From: Salinarchaeum sp. IM2453
GTDB taxonomy: Archaea > Halobacteriota > Halobacteria > Halobacteriales > Salinarchaeaceae
Direction of reading: 5' to 3'
Assembly: GCF_019693215.1 (NCBI RefSeq)
Contig: NZ_CP081183.1
Location: forward strand, 1,367,226-1,431,225
DNA: 64,000 nt
The stretch's first letter is position 1, and each line of letters begins with the position of its first letter. The position numbers and the translations under genes were made by a program. The notes beneath the pieces are model-generated. The model ran no database searches and was not told where the DNA came from. It was given only the letters and a program-made list of their open reading frames with translations. Below are positions 8,343 through 63,396 of this stretch, piece by piece.

Positions 8343-9104
8343 CTATACTCCGGCACTAACAAGCAGTATCCCGACCTGCAACCCTGTTACTCTTGCAATT
8401 TCATTACTTGCCCCAAAGATGTCTCCGCTGATTCCTCCAAACGTCTGATTTGCCCACCGGTATATTACTGCTGTTGTTAGCACGATTACTCCGATAATTA
8501 GTAGACTGACGTACGGCACTGCAGATACCAGTATCACTGGAACTGTTCCAAGCAGCGGGTACAGACTTTCAACCGGTCGGGACATCGATGTCAGTGCAGA
8601 CCCCAGTCCCTCATGTGCAGATGAGCCAATACAAGCCAGTATTGCCATCGACAGTTTTGCTCCAACTTCAGCTGTCAATACAATCCATATTGCCGTCTGT
8701 GTCTTTATCTCAGTCAGAGCAACCCCCGCTGTTCCTAGCCCGAGAATTACGAGCCCAACGGCTACTATCCCCCCAACTCCCGTAGCTGTATCCTTCAAAA
8801 TATCGCGTTTCTTTTCTGTTTCCCCATGTGCTACTACTGCGTCACCACAATCAGCAACGCCATCTAGATGGCTAATTCCAATCAATACCACAATCGTAAG
8901 CGGAAAAACAAAGCCCATCATTGTTGCTGGAATCGGCAACGTGATGATTCCAGCAAGAATGAGACCAACTGCGTACCCAACGACAACAATTGAAACTGGC
9001 TCCCGTCGAAAGGCATCCCAAGCGGCCTCAGACCGCCCAACTGGCGCGTGTGTCAGATAACCAAATCCACCAGCAACTGCCAGTAACCTCTGTTTTACAT
9101 CCAT
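8343..9104 (-). CDS. cobS: Adenosylcobinamide-GDP ribazoletransferase CobS
   Basis: 253 aa integral membrane enzyme joining adenosylcobinamide-GDP and alpha-ribazole (phosphate) to give cobalamin (phosphate). The signature LDGVADCGDA with conserved acidic residues lies near residue 80, followed by several hydrophobic segments. I chose the ATG at 9104 (MDVKQRLLAV). The reading frame stays open upstream, but that extension runs back inside cbiB and has no membrane-protein character. The chosen start overlaps the cbiB stop by 10 bases. Confidence 0.9.
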   Translation of the reverse strand: MDVKQRLLAVAGGFGYLTHAPVGRSEAAWDAFRREPVSIVVVGYAVGLILAGIITLPIPATMMGFVFPLTIVVLIGISHLDGVADCGDAVVAHGETEKKRDILKDTATGVGGIVAVGLVILGLGTAGVALTEIKTQTAIWIVLTAEVGAKLSMAILACIGSSAHEGLGSALTSMSRPVESLYPLLGTVPVILVSAVPYVSLLIIGVIVLTTAVIYRWANQTFGGISGDIFGASNEIARVTGLQVGILLVSAGV

Positions 9105-10012
9105 AGTATCACTCCATAAATAATTCCAATAGCGTATGCAAGTATGCCAGCTCGCTGTACTAACTGTATTCCTTTCTGTGCTTGCTCGGTTGTTGGGAGA
9201 GACGCAGTTGGATTTAACGTGTATGCATCTGGTTTTGACAGTTGCACATGAAGAGCTCCCGCTATTGTACCCATCGGCCAGCCTGCATTCGGTGAGTCTG
9301 GATGTTGTGCCCACCGCCGTGCAGTTAAAACTGGATCCGGCGTTCCAGCACTCACTGATAATAATCCTGCACTTAATCTAGCTGGTAGCCACATCGTAAG
9401 ATCATCTAGCCGCGCTGCTGCTGTTCCAAGTTCTTTGTGCTGGTACCCAAGCATAGAATCCATAGTGTTGATCGTTTTTACCCATACCGCTGCAGCACCA
9501 CCTAACGACAACGATACTGGAGCAATAATCATAAACGCCAGTAGGGGTGCAATAAATCCATCTGCATAATTCTCAGCTGCACTTTCAACCGCTGCACTTC
9601 GTATCTCAGCTGGAGAAAGACTTGATTTCTCTCTCCCAACTAACGTAATCAACTGTTCCCGTGCCTGTTCTGTATTAGTATCACTCTTGACAATAATTCT
9701 GTTTGCACTGTCAATTAATCGACGAAGACTAATCATCGTAAAAAGCAGCCCTCCGCACAGAACTATTGTGAGATTTCTACTTACCGTTGATAATCCTGTA
9801 AGTAATGCCCATACTACCCCGCTTGTCACTAGTGGCGTTATGATGGAAAGAATCCCACCAACAAGCAGTGGTCGCTGCCAATCTCGATCAAGATAAGCGA
9901 TAACCGATCCAATCCATGCAATCGGATGGATTGCTTCTGGGGGCTCTGCCCATATCCAATCTAATGTCGCTGCAATAATGAGAACAAGAACAATTGGTGC
10001 AAGGTCAATCAT
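9095..10012 (-). CDS. cbiB: Adenosylcobinamide-phosphate synthase CbiB
   Basis: 305 aa polytopic membrane protein that amidates adenosylcobyric acid with aminopropanol (phosphate). Family features are the N-terminal DWIWAEPPEAIHPIAWIG segment, the central SAAENYADGFIAPL motif and GWPMGTIAGAL near the C-terminus. Length is normal. It overlaps the upstream HAD gene by 8 bases and the downstream cobS by 10, so the three are coupled. Confidence 0.93.
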   Translation of the reverse strand: MIDLAPIVLVLIIAATLDWIWAEPPEAIHPIAWIGSVIAYLDRDWQRPLLVGGILSIITPLVTSGVVWALLTGLSTVSRNLTIVLCGGLLFTMISLRRLIDSANRIIVKSDTNTEQAREQLITLVGREKSSLSPAEIRSAAVESAAENYADGFIAPLLAFMIIAPVSLSLGGAAAVWVKTINTMDSMLGYQHKELGTAAARLDDLTMWLPARLSAGLLSVSAGTPDPVLTARRWAQHPDSPNAGWPMGTIAGALHVQLSKPDAYTLNPTASLPTTEQAQKGIQLVQRAGILAYAIGIIYGVILWM

Positions 10013-10637
10013 TCAGCACTTCGGGAACCTCTTTGATGTTGTATTCGGTAAGCAGTATTGCTGTTCCACCGACATCTTCAATTCCACCATCTGCATCTGG
10101 GGTGTCTCCGACATGGATTAGTTCTGATGGCTCAACACTTAGTTCATCGGCGACTTTGTGGAATATCTTCGGATGGGGCTTCCTCCACCCAAATTCTGAA
10201 CTGGAAATTACAACATCAAACACATCGATTGAGATATCTGATCGCCGTATACTTCGGTCAACTAGTCCTGGTATCGTGCAGTTCGAACAAACCGCGACTG
10301 GACCCTGTCGGTTAGCCCAGCGAACTATATCTCGTGCATTTGGACGTGTGTACACCTTGGGGTCGAATGCTTCCTGTAATGCCTGATCTACCTGAGATTC
10401 TTCGGCCTGTACTCCTCTGCTCTCTAGTGCAGCTTGAACGTGTTCTTTTAGGGATATTTCAGCACCTTCTGGTTTAGAAAGATGATGCTCCCAGTAGGCG
10501 TCTTTCCAATCACTCGGGACAGAAACACCAGAGCTTTTTAGCCCATCCTTTACAGCTGTAGACGGCTCTGTTGGACGGTCGGCTTCAATAAGAGTCCCAA
10601 ATAGATCAAACGAAATTGCCACTATAGTTGGATTCAC
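10005..10637 (-). CDS. HAD-superfamily hydrolase coupled to cobalamin genes
   Basis: 210 aa HAD-fold protein. Motif I is SFDLFGTL (nucleophile Asp11), motif II is CSNCTIP, motif III lies in RKPHPKIF and motif IV is HVGDTPDADGG. The second motif I Asp typical of phosphatases is replaced by Phe, as in haloacid-dehalogenase-type members, so a phosphatase role is not assured. The gene overlaps cbiB by 8 bases, suggesting a part in the same pathway. The substrate cannot be read from the sequence. Confidence 0.85.
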   Translation of the reverse strand: MNPTIVAISFDLFGTLIEADRPTEPSTAVKDGLKSSGVSVPSDWKDAYWEHHLSKPEGAEISLKEHVQAALESRGVQAEESQVDQALQEAFDPKVYTRPNARDIVRWANRQGPVAVCSNCTIPGLVDRSIRRSDISIDVFDVVISSSEFGWRKPHPKIFHKVADELSVEPSELIHVGDTPDADGGIEDVGGTAILLTEYNIKEVPEVLND

Positions 10638-10699: not shown

Positions 10700-11275
10700 T
10701 TATTCGCTGTACCGCCATTCACCGCCGATTGTATCCCTTGTGTAGGACTCATATTCTGTGTCCTGAAAAACAGTTACTCGACCGCTTTCCTCGCTCAGTG
10801 TGACCGTTGCAACAACCTCTTCACGAGCGGACGTATCGAGCGCGCTCATATGCCGTGCTCCCATCCAGTCGTCATATTCTATTGATTCTAAGTTAATATC
10901 TGAGCTGATATCATCGGAACCTAAGTCCTTGAGTCGAACCATCTGTTTTTGAATATATCCATCAACTGTAACTACAACCGCCCCATCTCTTTCCATTGCA
11001 GCGTCCTGAGCAGCCTCAAAAAAGGCATCTTCACTTTCTGTCACCAATTGACAAATCTCAATCGGCCACTGATTTTCCCCCATTGGATCAGCAAACGATT
11101 CTATTGATGTCCCGGCAACAATAACAAAATACAATCCTGGACCTTGCACGTAGGGTTCGTCCCAGCGTTTAAACTCAAAACTAATACTCTCTGTGCAGAA
11201 TGTGATAACGTCAATCAACTCGGTCACTTTTGGATGATCCGTGTACTGTATTGATAGCGCGTCAGGTTCTGCCAT
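10700..11275 (-). CDS. dacZ: Diadenylate cyclase DacZ (DisA_N domain), c-di-AMP synthesis
   Basis: 191 aa single-domain protein with the DisA/DAC catalytic motifs: DGA at residues 97-99 and RHMSA at 141-145, matching the DGA and RHR/xS signatures of enzymes that condense two ATP into c-di-AMP. The archaeal form has an N-terminal part of its own rather than a DNA-binding domain. I chose the ATG at 11275 (MAEPDALSI), preceded at short distance by GGCGAG, over the ATG 27 bases upstream. The nearby genes are an acyl-CoA ligase and an RCK-domain antiporter. The family is known from Haloferax DacZ. Confidence 0.85.
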   Translation of the reverse strand: MAEPDALSIQYTDHPKVTELIDVITFCTESISFEFKRWDEPYVQGPGLYFVIVAGTSIESFADPMGENQWPIEICQLVTESEDAFFEAAQDAAMERDGAVVVTVDGYIQKQMVRLKDLGSDDISSDINLESIEYDDWMGARHMSALDTSAREEVVATVTLSEESGRVTVFQDTEYESYTRDTIGGEWRYSE

Positions 11276-11354
11276 AATCTCGCCTTGTATAGAACTACGC
11301 ATCGGGGGAGTAAAACACCTGACGGGCGAGAAATGATAAATATATGGTATTTAG

Positions 11355-12965
11355 CTATCCTTGACCAACCATTGCATCTTCTTCATCCCACTCTTGTTCA
11401 CGGAGCTCATATTTCTGAATTTTACCTGTTGCAGTCGTTGGAAGTTCTTCGACAAATTCGACCCGGCTAACTGCCTTAAAGCTCGCAAGACGATCTTTAG
11501 TGAAGTCTATCAGATCCTGTTTTTCTACATTCGGATCGTCTGGATCCCCTGACTGTGGAACAACAAATGCCTTCGGTGTTTCTCCCCATTCTTCACTTGG
11601 AGATGGGATCACCGCAACATCGGCAACTGCTTCGTGCTCAAAGAGCGTATCCTCAAGTTCGATCGAAGAGATGTTTTCACCCCCCGAAATAATAATATCC
11701 TTTTTTCGATCTTTGATAGCGATCATTCCATTTTCATCAACCGTTGCGAGGTCTCCCATATGGTAATATCCTTCAACACGGTCGTTAAACGCTTTTTCCG
11801 TCGCCTCTGGCTTGTTCCAGTATCCATCCATCACTTGGTTACCTCGAACAACAACTTCACCAATGGTCGCATCATCCCATGGAACATCATTGCCATCTTC
11901 ATCAACAACACGCACGTCCGTTCCAAGGACGCCCATACCCTGTCGTTTCTTTAGCGAGAGTTTCTCTTCTTCGCTGCCGATACGTTTTGGGTCGGACAGC
12001 GTAATAAGTGGTCCCGTCTCTGTCGCACCGTACAGATGCTTTAGATCCCAACCAAAGTCTTGTTCGACTTTTCGAATTGTTGCTTCTGGTGGAGCAGAAC
12101 CTGCGGTTGTAACGCGCACTTCATTTGAGCCTTGCATTTCGGGCTCGTTGTTATCCTGATAATGTTCAATTAACTGATTAAGCACTGTTGGTGCTGCACA
12201 GAGGAATGACACATTCTGCTCTTGAATTGTATCAACAATCCATTCAGCGTCAACACCTCGAGTACAGACGTGTTTGGCACCCATACCTGTAACTGCATAG
12301 ATATGACCCCAACCGTTCACGTGGAACATCGGCAGTGTCCACAGATAGACATCGTCACTGGTGAGCTCATGGTGAATAGCGATTAAATACGCATGTAGTG
12401 TCTCGGTCCGATGCGTTCGCATCACACCTTTCGGATCTCCGGTAGTTCCTGAAGTATAATTGATTGTTATTACTTCATCTTCTGACATTTCTGGTCGGCT
12501 GTACTCCGGTTCAGTCTCTCTGACTATTGTCTCAAAACTTTCCCAATCTCCATCGACTGCTTCTTCGTCATTTGTGATGAATATCTCCGTTGGGACTTCA
12601 TCTCGGATTGCTTCGATTTTTTCTGCATAATCATAATCCGCATAGACTGCATCAACTTCAGCATCAGAAAGAATGTATTCGTAATCTTCTGAAGTTAATC
12701 GATAATTGAGTGGTGTGTGAACTGCTCCAAGCTGCATTGAGGCATATGCTGTTTCAAGATGATAATGTGTATTTGGGTCAAGAACTGCAACCCGGTCCCC
12801 TTTCTCAATCCCACGTTGTTCCAATGCAGCTGATAACCGGTCAACTCGATCACCTAATTCGCTGTACGTGTACTCTTCACCAGTGGTTGCAACTGTTGCA
12901 ACCTCATCTTCATAGTACTTCCGCGCCCGATCCAAAAAGTCAACAGTTAGTAATGGTTTTTCCAT
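11355..12965 (-). CDS. Acyl-CoA synthetase (AMP-forming, fatty-acid-CoA ligase family)
   Basis: 536 aa ANL-superfamily enzyme. The phosphate-binding loop YTSGTTGDPKG, the adenine motif YGATETGP, the hinge region KDIIISGGENISS and the C-terminal catalytic Lys motif TATGKIQKYELR are all present and in order. It activates a carboxylic acid to its CoA ester. The sequence is closest in character to medium/long-chain fatty acid or related ligases, but the acyl substrate cannot be decided. It stands alone, divergent from the antiporter gene and separated from it by an A+T-rich spacer. Confidence 0.9.
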   Translation of the reverse strand: MEKPLLTVDFLDRARKYYEDEVATVATTGEEYTYSELGDRVDRLSAALEQRGIEKGDRVAVLDPNTHYHLETAYASMQLGAVHTPLNYRLTSEDYEYILSDAEVDAVYADYDYAEKIEAIRDEVPTEIFITNDEEAVDGDWESFETIVRETEPEYSRPEMSEDEVITINYTSGTTGDPKGVMRTHRTETLHAYLIAIHHELTSDDVYLWTLPMFHVNGWGHIYAVTGMGAKHVCTRGVDAEWIVDTIQEQNVSFLCAAPTVLNQLIEHYQDNNEPEMQGSNEVRVTTAGSAPPEATIRKVEQDFGWDLKHLYGATETGPLITLSDPKRIGSEEEKLSLKKRQGMGVLGTDVRVVDEDGNDVPWDDATIGEVVVRGNQVMDGYWNKPEATEKAFNDRVEGYYHMGDLATVDENGMIAIKDRKKDIIISGGENISSIELEDTLFEHEAVADVAVIPSPSEEWGETPKAFVVPQSGDPDDPNVEKQDLIDFTKDRLASFKAVSRVEFVEELPTTATGKIQKYELREQEWDEEDAMVGQG

Positions 12966-13177
12966 ATATTTAATCCCACATGATTGTCCATATTGTTTAT
13001 TTGAATATCTTTCGATGAGAAAAGAACCAGAATATGGTTAACTATATCATTATTAATCATGCCTTGGGGTAATAATTTTAATATTCTTCATGGAAATTGT
13101 ATGTTAGCATCTATTTTATTGAACGCTCAGGTGTGATTGAATCGACACCATCAAATAACATAGTATATATTCCATAT

Positions 13178-15043
13178 ATGACGATGGATTTACTTGCTGC
13201 AGTTGCACTTATTCTTGCTCTTGGCGTCGCGTCTCGCATTTTAGCTGATCGGCTTCAAATCCCAAGTGTGCTTTTTCTTATTGTCGCTGGTGTTGTTATT
13301 GGCCCCGAAGTTCTCGGTCTAGTCTCGTTTGAGACCTTTGAAGGTGGACTCTCCGCGATGGTTGGTGTCGCAGTCGCAATTATTCTCTTCGAGGGAGGAT
13401 ATCATCTTGAACTCAGTAAACTCCGCGAAACTCCAACTGCGACTTTCAAATTAGTGACCGTTGGTGCGTTGATTACGTGGCTTGGAACCGCTCTGGCAGT
13501 TACTCTCTTTTTGGATGTTGGATATGAAACTGGGCTACTGATTGGTGCACTACTTATCGCGACGGGACCGACTGTTATTGGTCCGATTCTACAGGTTGTC
13601 CCTGTCCGAAACCATGTTGGATCAATTCTGGAAAGTGAAGGTATTATTAATGATATTACCGCCGCTATCTTAGCAGTTGTTATATATGAAGTGCTGGTTC
13701 ACCCAGACGGCGCCGGAAGCTTGTGGCTTCTTGTTCCGGAGTTTCTTCTCCGGTTGATTGTTGGCCTTGGAATTGGCGTTGCTATCGCTGCCTCCGTTTG
13801 GTATCTGCTAAAGAATGTTTCACTCGTTCCTGATGCTGCTCCATTGCATGCACGGTTGATTGTGCTTGCCGCTATTATTGTTGCGTACGGTGGTGCAGAG
13901 ACAATTCTAGCAGAGACTGGTATCGCTGCTGCCGCCGCTGCTGGTTTTGTTCTTGGGAACGTTGATCTACCTCACCACGAAGAAGTTATTGATTTCCTTG
14001 ATGACCTGTCAGTAGTTGTACTCTCATTTATTTTTGTTGCCCTTGCTGCACTGATCAATGTTGATGACATCATTGAACTCGGTCTTCCTGCGCTTGGAAT
14101 TGTTATTGCTGTTGTCTTTATTCTTCGACCGCTGGTCATTGCGATTTCAGCAACAGGAGAGCGCTTTACAAGTAATGAAAAGCTCTTCCTTAGTGCGGTT
14201 GGCCCTCGTGGTATCATTCCGGCCGCTGTTGCAACACTATTCGCGGTTGAGTTAGAAACTGTCGGACAATTTGATACTGCTGGTGCACTTGCTGGAACAG
14301 TCTTTTTAATTATCTCGGTCACCGTCGTTCTACAAGGCGGATTGGCCCGAAATATCGCTGAACGATTAAATGTGATACCTATGCATACAATTATTGTTGG
14401 CGCAGGGCGCGTTGGAACTGCCCTCGCCGAACGGCTTGAACGAGACGGAGAGAATGTAATTATGCTTGAGAAAGATCCAGAAGCAGCTGAGAAAGCCCGT
14501 GACCGCGGGTTGCGTGTCATTGAAGGAGACGGCACCGACGCGGACGATCTCCAAAAAGCTGAAATTGGCAATGCGAAGACCTTCGTTGCCGCTACCCCAT
14601 CTGATGATGTAAACCTCCTTGCCTGCCAACTGGCAAAAACACGGTTCGATATGACAAAGGTTGCCTCTCGAGTTAACCAACCTGGGAATGTCGAAGCGTT
14701 TGAGTCAATGGGTGTGCGGACAATGGACGTCTCAATGGCAACAGCGTGGTCTCTTGAAAATGTGCTTGAGCGCCCAGCACTGTCTCAATGGATGAATGAA
14801 CTTGGCCGCACTGGAGATGTTCAAGAGATTGCTGTCACATCAGAAGAACTCATCGGCAAACCGATTTCTGAGATCAACAAACGAGTTCCGGAAGGTTGTA
14901 TCGTTGGGCTGGTAACTGACAAGGAAGGTAATTCACATGTTCCAACTGGCGATCAAACAATCGAACGCGGCGATCATATAACGTTCATTGGAGAGACTGA
15001 GGCGGTTGACAAAGCTGTCAAGCGCTTCCACCCTCACGAATAA
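13178..15043 (+). CDS. CPA-type cation/proton antiporter with C-terminal RCK (TrkA) domains
   Basis: 621 aa from the chosen ATG at 13178 (a second ATG follows at 13184). The upstream in-frame extension to 13097 is not hydrophobic in the family manner. Residues 1 to about 390 form a 12-13-helix Na+(K+)/H+ exchanger domain. An RCK_N/TrkA-N Rossmann domain begins near residue 402 (IIVGAGRVGTALAERL), and an RCK_C/TrkA-C domain occupies about 550-621 (LIGKPISEI ... RGDHITFIGE). It probably exports Na+ or K+ in exchange for H+ under ligand control. The ion cannot be assigned by eye. Confidence 0.9.
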   Translation: MTMDLLAAVALILALGVASRILADRLQIPSVLFLIVAGVVIGPEVLGLVSFETFEGGLSAMVGVAVAIILFEGGYHLELSKLRETPTATFKLVTVGALITWLGTALAVTLFLDVGYETGLLIGALLIATGPTVIGPILQVVPVRNHVGSILESEGIINDITAAILAVVIYEVLVHPDGAGSLWLLVPEFLLRLIVGLGIGVAIAASVWYLLKNVSLVPDAAPLHARLIVLAAIIVAYGGAETILAETGIAAAAAAGFVLGNVDLPHHEEVIDFLDDLSVVVLSFIFVALAALINVDDIIELGLPALGIVIAVVFILRPLVIAISATGERFTSNEKLFLSAVGPRGIIPAAVATLFAVELETVGQFDTAGALAGTVFLIISVTVVLQGGLARNIAERLNVIPMHTIIVGAGRVGTALAERLERDGENVIMLEKDPEAAEKARDRGLRVIEGDGTDADDLQKAEIGNAKTFVAATPSDDVNLLACQLAKTRFDMTKVASRVNQPGNVEAFESMGVRTMDVSMATAWSLENVLERPALSQWMNELGRTGDVQEIAVTSEELIGKPISEINKRVPEGCIVGLVTDKEGNSHVPTGDQTIERGDHITFIGETEAVDKAVKRFHPHE

Positions 15044-15434: not shown

Positions 15435-15974
15435 ATGAGCAAAATTACGTTCCGAGCCGATCAAGAACTTATCGACGAGCTTGAACGGTTTGACGCGTCA
15501 AAGAGTGAGATTATGCGTCGAGCCTTACGAGCTTACTTGGACTCACATCCGCAATCAGATCCATCCACTTACGACGATTCTCAGATTAAAGATGATACTA
15601 TTGATGGTATGATCGCAACCAGGGTTGACGAATTAATTAAAGAGCGCCTTGGACAGCCAACAACGTCACCACAGGATGTCAACATTAATATTTCGTTAGA
15701 TGCCGAATCAGAACGTGTTACATCTGTAGACGCTTCGCGTAAGACAGAGCAAGTTTCTTCTCAAACTCCGTCTGACAAATCATCGACTTGTGACCAGTGC
15801 GGTGAATTGGTCGACGATGATCACGTATACTGCCCAAATTGTGGAGAAAAAGTCTCACAGCGTGTTTTCTGCGAGTGTGGGGATGAACTTCGTTCTGACT
15901 GGGGATTTTGCCCAAGTTGTGGACGACGTACGCCAGCTGCCGATGTTCTTGACCCATCTGACCAATTTGACTGA
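15435..15974 (+). CDS. cdrL: Ribbon-helix-helix / double zinc-ribbon regulator CdrL
   Basis: 179 aa. Residues 1-40 form a CopG-like ribbon-helix-helix (ITFRADQELIDELERF ... SEIMRRALRAYL). A middle linker follows, and then two zinc ribbons (CDQCGELVDDDHVYCPNCG and CECGDELRSDWGFCPSCG). This matches the long 'cell division regulator' encoded upstream of cdrS-ftsZ2 in haloarchaea, which is reported to regulate that operon. The assignment is from memory of the family and the conserved position. It is separated from cdrS by about 170 bases containing a promoter and an inverted repeat. Confidence 0.82.
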   Translation: MSKITFRADQELIDELERFDASKSEIMRRALRAYLDSHPQSDPSTYDDSQIKDDTIDGMIATRVDELIKERLGQPTTSPQDVNINISLDAESERVTSVDASRKTEQVSSQTPSDKSSTCDQCGELVDDDHVYCPNCGEKVSQRVFCECGDELRSDWGFCPSCGRRTPAADVLDPSDQFD

Positions 15975-16009
15975 CATTGTTTGCACTTTTGTCATACAAT
16001 ACCCGTAAG

Positions 16010-16143
16010 ATTTAATAGCGGTGGCACACAGTATCAAACTGCGTAAGACGACCGTCTTACACGGTGCGGTGCCCTCCAAATGTCGCCGTGCCGTCATGCG
16101 GTCCCGTGTCTAACGCGGTGCGCAACAAAAGGGGAGATTAACT
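16010..16143 (+). promoter_or_regulatory. Promoter and ~100-base leader of cdrS-ftsZ2 with inverted repeat
   Basis: A TATA-like TTTAATAG lies at about 16012-16019, which would place transcription start near 16040. A perfect inverted repeat with 8-base arms and a 2-base spacer (GTAAGACG/CGTCTTAC, 16043-16060) then follows right at the expected start, with a GC-rich stretch to about 16125 and AGGGGAG just before the ATG. It could be a dyad operator for a ribbon-helix-helix protein (CdrL or CdrS) or an RNA hairpin in the leader. The positions of the promoter and start are inferred. Confidence 0.55.
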
Positions 16144-16323
16144 ATGGAACGTGTGACACTTCGAATCCCGAAACAGCAAATTGAACAGGTTGAACAGATG
16201 GTTGAAACCGGCCAATATCCAAACAGAAGCGAAGCAATTCGAGCTGCCGTCCGTGATATGATTGAGGAAGAAGCAGACCGTGCGCAAGATGGTAACCGAG
16301 ACCATTCATTTGTGAGGGCGTAA
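16144..16323 (+). CDS. cdrS: Small ribbon-helix-helix cell-division regulator CdrS
   Basis: 59 aa protein, almost entirely one ribbon-helix-helix domain ([19 protein letters not shown] ... [15 protein letters not shown]). RHH proteins dimerise and bind DNA through the N-terminal strand. In Halobacterium the equivalent short gene, co-transcribed with ftsZ2, controls cell division (CdrS). The ATG at 16144 follows AGGGGAG by seven bases, and the stop at 16321-16323 lies three bases before the ftsZ2 ATG, so the two genes form one operon. Confidence 0.9.
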
Positions 16324-16326
16324 ACA

Positions 16327-17490
16327 ATGCAAGACATCGTCCAAAATGCACTCAAAAATGCTGAACAGGAAGACCGTGACGTTGACGTAGATAGTGATGA
16401 ATTTGGAGATCCGCGCATTGTAATCGTCGGTTGTGGTGGTGCCGGTAACAACACGGTTAATCGTCTCTACAATATCGGTGTCGATGGTGCTGAGTCTGTT
16501 GCTATTAATACTGATAAGCAGCACCTTCAGATGATCGAGGCAGACACGAAGATCTTGATTGGCAAATCACTGACCGAAGGTCTCGGTGCCGGTGGTGATC
16601 CATCGATGGGCGAGCGTGCTGCGGAGATGGCGCAGGGGACAATTAAGGATGTCCTCGGTGAAGCAGATCTTGTGTTTGTCACTGCTGGTATGGGTGGCGG
16701 AACAGGAACTGGTGCTGCCCCTGTTGTCTCTAAGATTGCAAAAGAACAGGGCGCAATAGTTGTTGGAATGGTTTCTACCCCATTTAACGTTGAGCGTGCC
16801 CGAACCGTCAAAGCGGAAGAGGGGCTTGAACGTCTCCGAGACGAAGCTGACTCCATTATTGTTCTGGATAACAACAGACTGCTTGACTACGTGCCAAACC
16901 TTCCAATTGGAAAGGCGTTCTCCGTGATGGATCAGATTATTGCTGAAACTGTCAAAGGCATTTCTGAGACAATTACCCAGCCAAGCCTGATCAATCTTGA
17001 CTATGCCGATATGACGACGATCATGAATCAGGGAGGTGTAGCTGTCATGCTTGTTGGTGAAACTCAAGACACCAACAAGACAGAGGAAGTTGTCAATGAT
17101 GCAATGAACCATCCGCTCCTTGATGTTGATTATCGCGGTGCTTCCGGTGGTCTAGTCCATATTACTGGTGGACCTGACCTTACCCTCAAGGAAGCAGAGG
17201 GAATCGCTGATAACATTACTGAGCGACTGGATGCAAGTGCGAACGTTATTTGGGGAGCTCGTATTCAGGAAGAGTACAAAGGTAAAGTCCGTGTTATGGC
17301 AATTATGACTGGTGTTCAGTCTGCTCAGGTTCTTGGTCCCTCAACCCAGCGTCAGGCAGATCGATCTCGACGCGAACTTGAACAGACAAATAGCGGCGCT
17401 AATAACGGCTCCGGTCTTCGTGGCAAAGCACAAAGCGATGGTGGTCGTAGCGAAGTCGAGAAGCACAATGGCGTTGACGTTATCCGGTAG
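16327..17490 (+). CDS. ftsZ2: Cell-division tubulin homologue FtsZ2
   Basis: 387 aa GTPase. The nucleotide-binding [13 protein letters not shown], the tubulin signature [12 protein letters not shown] and the T7/synergy-loop region ([15 protein letters not shown]) are intact. The C-terminus is a polar low-complexity tail ending in a short conserved-looking segment. Haloarchaea have two FtsZ paralogues, and FtsZ2 is required for constriction. The immediate cdrS neighbour identifies this one as FtsZ2 rather than FtsZ1. Confidence 0.96.
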
Positions 17491-29844: not shown

Positions 29845-31407
29845 TCAGTCGTCAGCTACTGTCAATGTCGGATCATCGGCAGTGGCTAATAATCGATCAA
29901 GTGCCCGAACCATTGCTTCCACACTAGCGACTGTAATATCTGTATCGCTTTTTGCCACGGTCACTGACTGATCTCCACGTGACATCTCTACTTCTACAGT
30001 GACGACTGCATCTGTCCCTCCTGTAATAGCATCGACATGATATGACTCAAGCGTTGCAGTTCCTTCTCCAAGTGCTTGCCTGGCTGCTGAAACCGCTGCA
30101 TCGACTGGACCAGTTCCTGTACCAGACGCAACAAGCTCTTCACCATTAACCGAAAGCCGAACACTTGCCGTTGGTGTACCGCCGCCACTGGCAGCCGTGA
30201 TATCAAGCAACTCAACACGGCGTTCGTGTTTTTCGGCAGTGACCTCTTCTGCAATCTGAAGTAAGTCGACATCGGTTACGCGCTTACCTCGGTCACCTAA
30301 CTCTTTGACTTGGCTTACAATCTCATCAAGTTCTTCATCGGTGACATTCCACCCATGTTCCTCCAGTGCCGCTCGAGCTCCAGCCCGTCCTGTGTGTTTA
30401 CCAGCGACCATACGGCGTTCTCGTCCAACCTTTTCAGGTGGATAAGGTTCGTACATCGCTTCGTCTTTGAGTGTTCCATCAGTGTGGATGCCTGACTCAT
30501 GTGTAAAGGCGTTCTCACCGAGGACAGCCTTGTTCGGAGCCAATCCGATGCCAGTCGCTTGACTGACTGTTCGTCCCAGTTCATACAACATCTCGGTTTC
30601 AACTACCTGCGTGTCATACACGTGATCAAGCGTTATTGCCATCTCTTCCAGTGCCACATTTCCTGCGCGTTCGCCAATTCCATTGACTGTTGCATGTACT
30701 GTGTCTGCCCCGGCGGCTAATGACGCCAAGGCGTTCGTCATCGCAAGGCCAAGGTCATCGTGTGTATGTGTGCTTGTTGGCCCAATCTCAGCCAGCCGTG
30801 ACACTGCCCTGTATGTTTCTTCTGGGCCAGCATGCCCAACCGTGTCAGCGAAGCAAATTTGGTCAGCCCCAGCACTGTACGCGGCGCCCATCAACTCCTC
30901 TAAAAACGAGAAGTCTGATCTAGATCCATCTTCCCCTATGACTTCAACCCACAATCCATGATCTTTCGCATAGTCGACTAGCTCCTCAGTTTTGGCGACT
31001 GTTTCTTCGCGGCTTGACCTGATTTTTTTCTCTATATGTCGGTCACTTGCTGGGACAACAAGTTCTACACCATCAACTCCTGCGTCAAGTGCCAGATCAA
31101 TATCTGATTTAATTCCCCGAGCAAAACTTGTTACTCGGGCATCTAAGTTCAACTCAGTCACGCGACGAATTGCTCGCCGTTCCCCTTCACCAGTACATGC
31201 AGACCCAGCTTCAATAATATCAACGCCTGTTTCATCCAGCTTTCGCGCAATCTCAGCCTTTTCATCTGGTGATAATGATACACCTGGGGCTTGTTCACCG
31301 TCCCGCAGCGTTGTATCAAGAACGTTGTATGTGACTTCGTCGCTCGATTCGACTAATGATTCGAAGGAAAAGTCGTGATGTTCTGGGCTTTTACCCGTGA
31401 ATTTCAC
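29845..31407 (-). CDS. LeuA-family acyl transferase: (R)-citramalate synthase or 2-isopropylmalate synthase
   Basis: 520 aa. The catalytic TIM barrel begins with LDTTLRDGEQAPG (metal-binding Asp), has the THTHDDLGLA HxH metal motif and GIGERAGN, and ends in the NAFTHESGIHTDG segment. A C-terminal ~130-residue LeuA allosteric domain follows (ASVRLSVNGEE ...). Haloarchaea have two paralogues, and the SPDEK-x-EIA-x-KLDE-x-GVD pattern seems closer to the citramalate synthase type (CimA). The start is the GTG at 31407, since no Met occurs for over 100 residues. That GTG lies inside a palindrome (see leader entry). Confidence 0.88.
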   Translation of the reverse strand: MKFTGKSPEHHDFSFESLVESSDEVTYNVLDTTLRDGEQAPGVSLSPDEKAEIARKLDETGVDIIEAGSACTGEGERRAIRRVTELNLDARVTSFARGIKSDIDLALDAGVDGVELVVPASDRHIEKKIRSSREETVAKTEELVDYAKDHGLWVEVIGEDGSRSDFSFLEELMGAAYSAGADQICFADTVGHAGPEETYRAVSRLAEIGPTSTHTHDDLGLAMTNALASLAAGADTVHATVNGIGERAGNVALEEMAITLDHVYDTQVVETEMLYELGRTVSQATGIGLAPNKAVLGENAFTHESGIHTDGTLKDEAMYEPYPPEKVGRERRMVAGKHTGRAGARAALEEHGWNVTDEELDEIVSQVKELGDRGKRVTDVDLLQIAEEVTAEKHERRVELLDITAASGGGTPTASVRLSVNGEELVASGTGTGPVDAAVSAARQALGEGTATLESYHVDAITGGTDAVVTVEVEMSRGDQSVTVAKSDTDITVASVEAMVRALDRLLATADDPTLTVADD

Positions 31408-31470
31408 GGCCAGCCGCCTTGCGGCGACTTCCTCTATCCTCCGAGGAATTCGTTCCTCTCATAGGTATAA
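31397..31470 (-). promoter_or_regulatory. Hairpin-rich leader and start region of the leuA-family gene
   Basis: Reading 5' to 3' on the minus strand: a TATA-like CATTATACC at about 31470-31462; a perfect 6-base hairpin with a TTCG-type loop (GAGGAA/TTCCTC, 31458-31443); a hairpin of GCCGC/GCGGC (about 31427-31413); then the palindrome CCGTGAA-x-TTCACGG (31411-31397), which contains the GTG start. The start codon would be paired if this palindrome forms in the RNA. The transcription start is unknown, so the first hairpin may lie upstream of it. Confidence 0.45.
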
Positions 31471-36394: not shown

Positions 36395-37228
36395 GTGACA
36401 GTCAGTATACTCATTCCATCGTCCCTTGTCCGCGAAACCGAAGACAAGCGCGAGGCAACTCGCAAACTCGGTACAATCGCGCGGGCAGCAACAATATTTC
36501 GCGTTGATCAAGTAATCATCTTCCCAGATCGGGAAGGCGAGAAATATTGGGGCGGTGGGTTCGTTGAAACTGTCTTGCGGTATGCCGCGACGCCTCCAGA
36601 CCTCCGAAAGGAGGTATGGGGTACGCGGGACGAACTGGAGTATGCGGGCGTTTTGCCGCCGCTTCACGCCTTGTCGCAGACCGGCTCTGGATCAAGTGAT
36701 CCGGGGTCGTTAAGACAGGGAATCGTGACCGAGGTCGGACCTGATGGGCGCGTTCGGGTCAATTGCGGCCTGCAACACCCGATCTCGCTCCCCGTGCCGT
36801 CAAAAATGTCGGTACAGGAGGGAGAGCGCGTAACCGTCAGGGTCTCTTCGCGACGACCCGTCCGCGCGAAACTTGCTGACGAGCCCGTTTCGGGCTTTCA
36901 AGTTTATCGTGCGGACCTCCCGGAAGCTCTCAGCTGGTCCGATACGGGACTCTGCATTGCAGCGTCTCGGTATGGCCAGGATTTGACCGTTGATACTCTC
37001 GACGAGTTAACGTCGGAGATCAGCCAACGAGGTCTCACAATCGCGTTTGGCGCTCCACAGCGGGGACTTCCGGACATCTTCGGGATTGATATCGACGATG
37101 TGGCCGATGGCGACCCCGCCCAGGGGTTCGACCGATGGGTAAATACGATCCCAAATCAGGGAAGCAGAACGGTGCGAACAGAAGAAGCAATCTTCGCATC
37201 GCTTGCTTCTCTAACACTTACGGAGTGA
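36395..37228 (+). CDS. SPOUT-class RNA methyltransferase (C9orf114-like), head of the ribosomal block
   Basis: 277 aa protein with a SPOUT N-part (VSILIPSSLVRETEDKRE, IARAATIFRVDQVIIFPD) and an inserted OB-like barrel (GIVTEVGPDGRVRVNCG). The C-part has GAPQRGLPDIFGI, the knotted SAM-binding region, and ends near NTIPNQGSRTVRTEE. The family methylates rRNA, though the site in archaea is not clear to me. The start is the GTG at 36395, and the stop lies four bases before uL3. Codon choice is visibly GC-richer than in the rest of the window. Confidence 0.85.
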   Translation: MTVSILIPSSLVRETEDKREATRKLGTIARAATIFRVDQVIIFPDREGEKYWGGGFVETVLRYAATPPDLRKEVWGTRDELEYAGVLPPLHALSQTGSGSSDPGSLRQGIVTEVGPDGRVRVNCGLQHPISLPVPSKMSVQEGERVTVRVSSRRPVRAKLADEPVSGFQVYRADLPEALSWSDTGLCIAASRYGQDLTVDTLDELTSEISQRGLTIAFGAPQRGLPDIFGIDIDDVADGDPAQGFDRWVNTIPNQGSRTVRTEEAIFASLASLTLTE

Positions 37229-51094: not shown

Positions 51095-51727
51095 ATGAGC
51101 AAACCGAAGCTCACATTGCTTGGTGCACCGGGTGCAGGTAAAGGAACACAGAGTTCAAATCTCGTTGAGGAGTACGATATTGATCACATTACAACGGGTG
51201 ACGCACTCCGTAATAACAAAGACATGGAAACAGAGTACGGGACTCCGCGTGAGTATATGGAGGCTGGTGAACTTGTGCCTGATCCTGTTGTTGACGAAAT
51301 CGTTGAAGCTGCGCTCGCTGATGCTGACGGATTCGTACTTGATGGATACCCTCGAAATCTTTCTCAGGCAGAGCACTTGGAATCGATCACTGACCTTGAT
51401 GCGGTTGTCTACTTTGAGGTAAGTGAAGATGAACTCCTAACTCGACTTACTGGACGCCGTGTCTGTGATAACTGCGGTACAAATTATCATGTCGAATACA
51501 ACCCGCCAGAAGAAGAGGGAATCTGTGATGAGTGTGGTAGCGATCTCATACAGCGTGATGATGACACAGAGGAGACAGCAAAGGAACGTCTTCGTGTCTT
51601 TGAAGAAAACACAATGCCTGTTGTTGAGTACTTTGAGGATACTGACTCGTTTGTAACTGTTGACGGTGAACAGGCTCCTGATGAAGTATGGGCCGACCTT
51701 TGTGATGCTGTAGAGGCACAGTTCTAA
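51095..51727 (+). CDS. adk: Adenylate kinase with zinc-type LID
   Basis: 210 aa. The P-loop is [10 protein letters not shown] (residues 9-18), followed by the AMP-binding TTGDALR and the [11 protein letters not shown] segment. The LID carries four cysteines in CDNCGTNYH ... CDECGS, a zinc site. It interconverts ATP+AMP and 2 ADP. The enzyme has a normal bacterial-like length, as usual in haloarchaea. It follows the secY region as in many archaeal operons. Confidence 0.95.
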
Positions 51728-51847
51728 TCGCTATCTGATCGCCAGAGGAGCACCTTTGCGGTCTTTGACCTGTCATGTAGACCGCAATCAGATTTTTTCG
51801 TAAGGAAAGCAAAAGGCTTCAATAGCGACGTTGTCTACCGTCAAATA

Positions 51848-52753
51848 ATGCCACGAACAGCTGAGAAAGTACGCAACTTGCTTGAAGATGGCGAAGAGAT
51901 GGAAGAGGCTCTTCGCACAGTGAAGCAGGCTGCGGATGAAAATGATGGAGAAGTTGCGTGGGAAGACGTTAATGAAGAGATTGATAGCGGTCAGTGGGGT
52001 CGTATCATTGAAGTTGGCATTCTCGAAAGCACGGAGAATGGTTTTCGATTTCGATACCCGGATGAAGTCGATGATATCCTTGGTGCCGATGACATTGAAT
52101 CTGCAATCGACCTTGACCTGCCGGATCTCAAATTCGGTGATACTGGGTGGACCAAGTGGGACAAGGCAGCTGCGGCTACCGCTGGTGTGATGATTATTGG
52201 ATACTACTTTGATCCTTTACAGAACCTTATCGGCGGTACTGTCGATATTTTCCTCGGACCGTTCGCTAATACGCTCCCATTTTTCATGGTGATCTTTATT
52301 GCAGCGCTGATCACGGCGCTGTTTTCAACGCTACTGTATTCACACCTTGTAGATGAAGAGATTATGGATGCATTCCGGACCCGTATGAATGCCATTCAGG
52401 ACAAAAAACAAAAAGCACAGGAAGCGGGTGATGAGGAGGCAATCGATTACTTTGAAGATAAGCAGATGGATATGATGACCGACCAGATCGAAATGTTCAA
52501 AGCTCAGTTTCGACCAATGGCGTGGATTATGCTTCTCGTCATCCCAATTTTCCTTTGGATCTGGTGGATGGCCGGACAGGGAACCATCGGGCAAGAACAA
52601 TTCGATGCTGTGTACCCAATTGCTGGTACTATCGAAGATTGGAATGACGGCATTATCGGTCCCCTACGGAGCTGGATTGTCTGGTACATCGTCTGCTCTA
52701 TTAGCCTCTCTCAAATCCTTCGGAAGATGCTCAATATCCGAATGATGCAATAA
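51848..52753 (+). CDS. DUF106/EMC3-type membrane protein insertase
   Basis: 301 aa. The N-terminal ~100 residues are soluble and acidic, with a helical element near the start (RNLLEDGEEMEEALRTVKQA). Then come three transmembrane segments (about 105-130, 138-162 and 215-240) separated by a charged coiled-coil loop (ILDKKQKAQEAGDEEA region), and a final helix. This is the YidC/Oxa1-superfamily layout of archaeal DUF106 (homologous to EMC3/TMCO1). Its place after secY and adk fits a role in membrane protein insertion. Confidence 0.86.
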   Translation: MPRTAEKVRNLLEDGEEMEEALRTVKQAADENDGEVAWEDVNEEIDSGQWGRIIEVGILESTENGFRFRYPDEVDDILGADDIESAIDLDLPDLKFGDTGWTKWDKAAAATAGVMIIGYYFDPLQNLIGGTVDIFLGPFANTLPFFMVIFIAALITALFSTLLYSHLVDEEIMDAFRTRMNAIQDKKQKAQEAGDEEAIDYFEDKQMDMMTDQIEMFKAQFRPMAWIMLLVIPIFLWIWWMAGQGTIGQEQFDAVYPIAGTIEDWNDGIIGPLRSWIVWYIVCSISLSQILRKMLNIRMMQ

Positions 52754-62072: not shown

Positions 62073-63320
62073 GTGAATCTGGTCACAACACGCACCTTCA
62101 CTGCGTCACTCACCAATGACCGTGAGGGTGTTGTGCGTGACCTTGATTCACTGGCTCGTTCCGGTAGTAAAATCTGGAACGTCGCTCGGTGGACCATCAG
62201 CCGCATCTGGGACCACACCGGAACCATTCCGGATGAAGGACCGCTCAAGTCCTACATGAAAACCCAAGCGTGTTGGAAAGATTTGAACTCGCAGTCAAGT
62301 CAGGCAATCGTTGAAGAATTGGCTGGCGCTTTCCAGTCGTGGTTTGAACAGGACGACCCAGACGCCAACCCACCGGGGTATCGCAAAGATGGAGATGAGC
62401 GCCCACGTTCAACTGTTACGTTCAAAGAAGACGGCTTCAAACTCGACACGAAACACCAGCAAGTCCGGTTGTCGAAAGGGAAGAACCTGAAAGACGGATG
62501 GAGTGATTTCGTTCTCTGCGAATACGAACCCGGTCCAGACGTAGATCTGTCTGATGTAGAAACCGTACAGCAGGTCCGAATTGTCTGGAACGGTAACCGC
62601 TGGGAACTACACTTCGTCTGTAAGGTTAGCATTGATGCAGAGGACTCAGCAGGTGAGAAAACCGCAGGTGTTGACCTCGGCATCTGTAACACGGCGGCTG
62701 TCTCTGTCGGTGATGAAACGCTGTTGTATCCGGGCAACGCCCTGAAAGAAGACGCACATTACTTCCGGCAGGAAGAATACGACACAGAAGGCAAGAACGG
62801 CCCCAGCACCCATGCTGAGTGGGCAAGGCAGAAGAAATCCCGGCGACAAGAGCATTTCTTGCATGCGATCTCGACAGACATTGTTGAGCAGTGTGCTGCC
62901 CGTGGTGTTGGGACGATAGCAGTCGGTCACCCGGAAAACATTCGCGCTGATGAAGACTGGGGCCGACACGGGAACAAACGCCTGCACGACTGGGCGTTTG
63001 AAACACTGCTCAGTCACATTGAGTACAAAGCCGAAGAACGCGGGATTGGGGTTGAGCGGGTTGACGAGTACGAGTTGGCTACGTCGATCACGTGCTGTGA
63101 GTGTGGGATGAAAGCCGATTCAAACCGTGTTGAACGTGGTTTGTACGTCTGTGAGGTGTGTGGGTTGGTTGCGAATAGCGACTGTAATGCGGCTGAAAAC
63201 ATGCGAGCGACGGTAACTCCGAGTCCGTCACAGGATAGGAGTAACGGCTGTCTGGCCCAGCCATCGGTCCGCCTGTTCGACAAATCGACGGGGAGAGTCG
63301 CCCCACAAGAACAGGTATGA
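62073..63320 (+). CDS. tnpB: TnpB RNA-guided endonuclease (IS1341/IS605 OrfB family)
   Basis: 415 aa from the GTG at 62073. The N-terminal wedge/REC-like part spans about 1-190. The RuvC-type core has GVDLGICNTAAV (Asp201) and NSDCNAAENM (Asp370). The zinc ribbon is CCECGMK ... CEVCG (342, 344, 360 and 363). The middle acidic position reads GHPENIRADED (285-295) instead of the family's more usual acidic DL, so the second metal ligand may be lost or shifted. The tail SNGCLAQPSVRLFDKSTGRV is complete. No tnpA is present. Left and right element ends flank it. Confidence 0.93.
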   Translation: MNLVTTRTFTASLTNDREGVVRDLDSLARSGSKIWNVARWTISRIWDHTGTIPDEGPLKSYMKTQACWKDLNSQSSQAIVEELAGAFQSWFEQDDPDANPPGYRKDGDERPRSTVTFKEDGFKLDTKHQQVRLSKGKNLKDGWSDFVLCEYEPGPDVDLSDVETVQQVRIVWNGNRWELHFVCKVSIDAEDSAGEKTAGVDLGICNTAAVSVGDETLLYPGNALKEDAHYFRQEEYDTEGKNGPSTHAEWARQKKSRRQEHFLHAISTDIVEQCAARGVGTIAVGHPENIRADEDWGRHGNKRLHDWAFETLLSHIEYKAEERGIGVERVDEYELATSITCCECGMKADSNRVERGLYVCEVCGLVANSDCNAAENMRATVTPSPSQDRSNGCLAQPSVRLFDKSTGRVAPQEQV

Positions 63321-63360
63321 CCGTAGACCGGCAAATATCCCAACGCTTGCGGTGCGGTTC

Positions 63361-63396
63361 GGGAAGCCCCGTCGTTCACGACGGGGAGGAGGTCAC
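63361..63396 (+). mobile_element. Right end/omega-RNA hairpin of the tnpB element
   Basis: A perfect 8-base stem CCCCGTCG/CGACGGGG (63367-63374 and 63379-63386, TTCA loop) is followed by AGGAGGTCAC (63387-63396), the shared right-end terminus seen also at 32011-32041. In TnpB elements this is the 3' part of the guide RNA, whose guide continues into the flank (from about 63397). The boundary is inferred. Confidence 0.7.

Follow-up and report, generated by a model that had tools for sequence, protein, structure and literature searches.

Is the gene for a diadenylate cyclase (DAC) domain that lies near a cation/proton antiporter gene in the haloarchaeon Salinarchaeum sp. IM2453 part of an osmotic signalling module, and what kind of cyclase does it encode? 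The window, the whole 64,000-nucleotide stretch of DNA that we analysed, holds the two genes where the original prediction placed them, less than 2 kb apart with one acyl-CoA ligase between. The DAC gene (10700–11302, minus strand) is a 200-amino-acid open reading frame (ORF), the likelier start of which, at 11275, gives a protein of 191 residues. The AMP-binding ligase (11355–12965, minus strand) is directly upstream and co-directional with it, and a HAD-family hydrolase (10005–10637, minus strand) and a CbiB/CobD cobalamin biosynthesis protein (9095–10012, minus strand) are co-directional downstream; ligase, DAC, hydrolase and cobalamin genes thus make up a minus-strand run in one direction. 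The CPA-type antiporter (13178–15043, plus strand) is divergent from the DAC and lies beyond the ligase, across a gap of 1876 bases, and the two share no operon. Its ORF extends over 13097–15043 on the plus strand (648 amino acids), and translation more probably begins at the ATG of 13178 or 13184 than at the TTG of 13097, an improbable start. Na_H_Exchanger, TrkA_N and TrkA_C all score above their cut-offs: the RCK_N (TrkA_N) domain spans 14390–14719 on the plus strand (residues 432–541 of the ORF), and the RCK_C (TrkA_C) domain, spanning 14822–15028 on the same strand (residues 576–644), begins exactly at the base predicted.

Just past the antiporter, 15435–17490 holds the gene for a CdrL-like ribbon-helix-helix/zinc-ribbon protein and then ftsZ. 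Because CdrS of Haloferax is reported to bind upstream of dacZ and ftsZ1 (PMC8406309), the closeness of the window DAC to a CdrL–ftsZ pair may be more than chance. Elsewhere in the window, searches for Rfam-type RNAs matched an L4-Archaeoglobi ribosomal leader (72 bits, 36741–36840), here in a haloarchaeal genome, a leuA-Halobacteria leader (31396–31448) and a sot0042 RNA (63211–63387).

The cyclase had been labelled DacZ, and this part of the prediction fails. In a family relative (genome G010), DacZ has a DACZ_N domain of 175 bits and a full DAC domain of 76 bits, with an mscS gene directly downstream, and a dacZ–mscS2 operon has been reported for all halobacteria (Braun et al. 2019, PMC6741144). 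The window ORF reaches a marginal 27.2 bits against Pfam DAC (cut-off 27), over profile positions 50–117 only, and has no match in NCBIfam; DACZ_N (PF19294) is found neither in it nor in any of 49 aligned members of its own family, and its neighbours are the ligase and the HAD hydrolase. We therefore reject a DacZ identity on domain content and on DAC score (27.2 versus about 76 bits). The protein belongs to a second haloarchaeal DAC family that consists of a stand-alone DAC domain, and we regard this correction of identity as solid.

Searching genome contigs with the window DAC alone confirmed no relative; profile searches succeeded. A profile of eight short DACs found the family in 148 of 392 genomes of the order, spanning 43 of 95 genera, and in a phylum-wide draw the 28 matching genomes (of 392) all came from the same order. 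A search of named genomes confirmed 156 relatives, of which the 80 listed are all haloarchaeal records. Family members are 42–62% identical to the window protein (the nearest relative, in the first alignment, 62%), and Pfam DAC matches 48 of the 49 aligned. Many already carry the name 'diadenylate cyclase' in RefSeq, and we found no description of the family in the literature searched, which included PMC10927574, PMC12175516, PMC11434293 and PMC11078007; the Galperin 2023 survey of DAC architectures, which lies outside that search, may cover it. PADLOC assigned none of three members to an anti-phage system, and no family match occurred in the phage collection. Two unequal short DACs stand in tandem at L040 9654–10742 (genome G059) and L091 4450–5605 (G341), possibly forming heterodimers. 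A stop codon interrupts the short DAC of G083 (L044 9639–10196): members of the family decay here and there, in the manner of accessory genes.

Gene neighbourhoods were compared between a test set of 82 short-DAC loci (the best-scoring profile matches and those from a Pfam DAC survey, with L086 and the duplicate L084 dropped) and 56 control stretches of 12 kb, placed at random in these genomes on contigs carrying a short DAC (60 drawn, four dropped). Neighbouring genes were called by script and identified with Pfam, and profiles were iterated over both sets, the RCK profile from a TrkA of the window genome that is not near a DAC and the universal stress protein (USP) and CBS profiles from test loci. 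Within 5 kb, RCK genes occurred at 18 of 82 short-DAC loci versus 1 of 56 controls (p = 0.00066), USP genes at 26 versus 3 (p = 0.0001), CBS genes at 10 versus 1 (p = 0.03) and any of the three at 40 versus 4 (p = 9e-8), p-values that are descriptive because the domain classes were chosen after viewing the neighbourhoods and because the test loci themselves supplied the seeds for USP and CBS. MscS on its own was not significantly associated (7/82 versus 1/56 within 5 kb). Collapsing the DACs at 70% identity left 27 clusters, and the association survived: half or more of the members had an RCK gene in 6 clusters (p = 0.004) and a gene of any of the three classes in 15 (p = 2.6e-6), values to be read in the same descriptive way. 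On the DAC tree, the RCK label changes at least 10 times, with 8 changes forced by well-supported branches. The 80 named loci, which overlap with the 82 and half of which are from Halorubrum, have an RCK gene nearby in 11 cases and a gene of any of the three classes in 48. Conversely, 42 of the 82 loci lack all three classes within 5 kb, and two large groups of short DACs occupy fixed sites beside DUF790/helicase or carotenoid genes. Taken together, the association of short DACs with RCK, USP and CBS genes is solid at the level of the family. The linkage implied by the proposed local osmotic signalling module extends beyond this genome for RCK and Trk genes, whereas the exact order of DAC, ligase and antiporter is not conserved; the module is thus supported in part, for the family as a whole.

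Some of these associations are very close. Co-directional pairs of a short DAC with Trk or antiporter genes are separated by 22–172 bases. On Halorussus and Halosimplex plasmids, an amino acid permease–USP, a DAC, trkA and trkH follow one another on one strand, the DAC abutting the permease (0 bases) and trkA lying 115 bases from the DAC. This 6.5-kb stretch is 99–100% identical in four plasmid records from the two genera, and Halosimplex aquaticum and three Halorussus plasmids share about 11.9 kb, with an antiporter gene in it, at 99.5–100%; the near identity across plasmids of two genera indicates a recent transfer of the DAC–Trk stretch as one unit. Plasmid pHH126 of Haloarcula hispanica N601 carries TrkA-type, DAC, TrkA_C, TrkH, USP and permease genes within 12 kb, and on two Haloarcula plasmids a cation:proton antiporter begins 22 bases past the DAC on the same strand. 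Across the 14 plasmid regions examined, from 25 matching records, a Trk/RCK gene or cation:proton antiporter lies within about 5–6 kb in 10, a Mg or divalent-metal transporter alone in 3, and neither in 1 (a DUF790 site).

Does the window pair itself belong to this pattern? Its nearness may be coincidental, with the DAC working with the ligase, HAD hydrolase and cobalamin neighbours or on its own, and we give this reading serious weight, if clearly short of an even chance. The antiporter is divergent, the gene order is not conserved, and antiporters of this family occur in nearly all genomes (357 of 392). All nine of the fetched closest antiporter relatives (67–70% identity) have no short DAC nearby, so the window pair has not been inherited as a block and a conserved DAC–ligase–antiporter order is rejected; synteny with ftsZ or other window genes was not found near the relatives either. 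Against coincidence, each of the two short DACs in this genome has an RCK antiporter no more than 1.9 kb away, at gaps of 1876 and 111 bases, for which random placement against the 11 RCK sites of the genome gives 0.0007, with a distance threshold set from the data and approximate extents for the RCK sites. The DACs nearest to that of the window in the tree (L043 and L085) also adjoin an RCK antiporter. In addition, an antiporter that shares about 53% identity with that of the window adjoins a short DAC in genomes G144 and G349 (the same genus, with identical DACs) and in G104, where the DAC lies 520 bases upstream of the RCK antiporter on the same strand (L087 289–3268), the closest analogue of the window pair.

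The RCK_C domain of the window antiporter has its closest solved relative in the RCK_C domain of BusR, a c-di-AMP receptor (E 8.5e-4). Of the BusR pocket residues described in PMC8517857, I153, N157 and G180 are kept in the window domain, and seven positions are changed: G154 to S, V158 to K, H160 to V, A164 to C, T165 to I, I166 to V and P181 to D.

An AlphaFold2 model built from 49 family sequences (pLDDT 89.6, pTM 0.86) places a complete DAC domain over residues 9–188 of the window protein. The model aligns with the DAC domains of CdaA, DacM/CdaM and DisA at Z 11.0–12.8 over 131–145 residues, versus Z of at most 3.5 for unrelated entries, and on this basis the protein is confidently predicted to have the whole DAC fold. 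By sequence, the PDB gave no phmmer match to the window DAC alone, and the family profile retrieved only weak DAC matches (best E 0.009). DGA and RHR are the active-site motifs of DACs (as given in PMC8573169). The window protein has the DGA motif, in which D and G are present in 49 of 49 family members and A in 47. The RHR site reads (A/T/S)(R/K)H(M/L) across the family: H is invariant (49/49), the first position (R141) holds R in 30 members and K in the other 19, and the third R is missing. S161 and G165 are likewise invariant in all 49. In the window protein the site is RHM, which need not be a sign of inactivity because haloarchaeal DacZ also has RHM, as G(T/A)RHMA in 19 of the 19 sequences parsed, these being the sequences caught by the pattern among 30 loci, a comparison set outside which HVO_1660 lies.

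A degenerate DAC, one that binds c-di-AMP or ATP without making it and acts as a receptor, buffer or partner subunit near transporters, could account for the divergent sequence, for a Pfam match limited to the second half of the domain, for the K at the first RHR position in 19 of 49 members and for the unequal tandem copies in G059 and G341. We consider it unlikely, given that the active-site D, G and H are invariant in 49 of 49 members, that the entire DAC fold is predicted to be kept, and that no other DAC was found in the window genome to supply the ligand.

In Haloferax volcanii, dacZ is single and essential according to Braun et al. 2019 (PMC6741144). Pfam DAC matched 144 of 146 genomes of the order and all 122 of good quality, and full DacZ (best E about 5e-19 or better) was present in 121 of those 122, the exception being the window genome (G000; one contig of 2,656,678 bases, 98.55% complete). 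Its sole Pfam DAC match is the window short DAC, and a DacZ query finds only the second short DAC (C1:2156342–2156869), which the family profile places in the short family. PF19294 has no match in the contig; it scores above cut-off in 38 of 40 genomes, relatives of this one included, the other miss being a genome that is 59% complete. Nor does G000 have an mscS2 orthologue (best match 25% identity). In relatives G010 and G026, adk lies two genes upstream of dacZ–mscS2, which directly follows an EMC3/TMCO1-like gene. The window has adk (51095–51727, plus strand) and the EMC3/TMCO1-like gene (51848–52753, plus strand), and at this site (51095–52753) no dacZ was found, the sequence running straight on to other genes; the site may be specific to these two relatives. 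The window genome thus seems to be without DacZ, apparently through loss, and has two short DACs in its place. That DacZ is present in the organism and missing from the assembly is improbable: a single contig at 98.55% completeness leaves room for a further unassembled replicon or a gap, but the 2.66 Mb hold no match to DacZ, DACZ_N or mscS2, and the adk–EMC3 site is continuous without the dacZ–mscS2 pair that two relatives have there.

Our preferred reading, which we put at about an even chance, is that short DACs are a second haloarchaeal DAC family that makes c-di-AMP and is coupled to the transport of cations, mainly K+. CBS domains are a c-di-AMP receptor fold. RCK_C in bacteria (PMC8517857) and the USP domain of KdpD (PMC8214093) are proven receptors, and the c-di-AMP targets of Haloferax are called unknown in PMC8406309; the literature searched named no archaeal receptor. 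We infer, as a hypothesis spanning catalysis, product, receptor binding and the window antiporter as a target, that the short DAC would most likely dimerise head to head and join two ATP into c-di-AMP, by analogy with other DAC domains. The product could then bind the RCK_C, USP or CBS domains that co-encoded transporters and their partners carry, and so adjust the uptake or efflux of K+ to the salinity outside. In the window genome, where DacZ is apparently lost, all c-di-AMP would come from the two short DACs. A broader and more tentative proposal, which we hold at clearly less than even strength, is that haloarchaea possess a second, mobile c-di-AMP system, in which compact cyclases travel with the K+/cation transporters and USP, CBS and RCK receptors that they control, as self-contained salt-response cassettes, and that in this lineage it has replaced the otherwise universal DacZ, essential in Haloferax.

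The position of short DACs beside K+ and cation transporters is a strong lead for potassium control in haloarchaea. Should the enzymes prove active, every cassette would join a cyclase to candidate receptors, giving a list of protein pairs that can be tested directly. A haloarchaeon without DacZ would show that an essential enzyme can be replaced, and would offer a natural background for telling apart what each DAC family does.

Several known systems resemble parts of this one. We know of no bacterial case of c-di-AMP control of RCK_C transporters in which the cyclase is encoded with the transporter. The window resembles the bacterial control of RCK_C transporters (KtrA, CpaA) and of BusR in having an RCK_C domain, here near a DAC-domain protein, and BusR offers the best solved match; unlike in those proteins, the window RCK_C is a candidate receptor proposed from sequence, with a pocket only partly kept. 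The KdpD receptor finds a parallel in the USP proteins that are frequent short-DAC neighbours, although these stand alone or are fused to amino acid permeases instead of a histidine kinase, and their binding of c-di-AMP is putative. The DAC domains of bacterial CdaA/DacA, CdaM/DacM and DisA have the same predicted fold as the window DAC, which differs in having no membrane segment or DNA-binding domain and in being 16–24% identical over aligned residues. From haloarchaeal DacZ (the HVO_1660 type, DACZ_N plus DAC, in an operon with mscS2), the window protein differs in having no DACZ_N, in its length (191–200 amino acids), in an identity of about 20%, in a patchy distribution and in standing outside an mscS2 operon; yet both have a DAC domain with DGA and a GxRHM-type site, a haloarchaeal host and a neighbourhood tied to osmotic channels.
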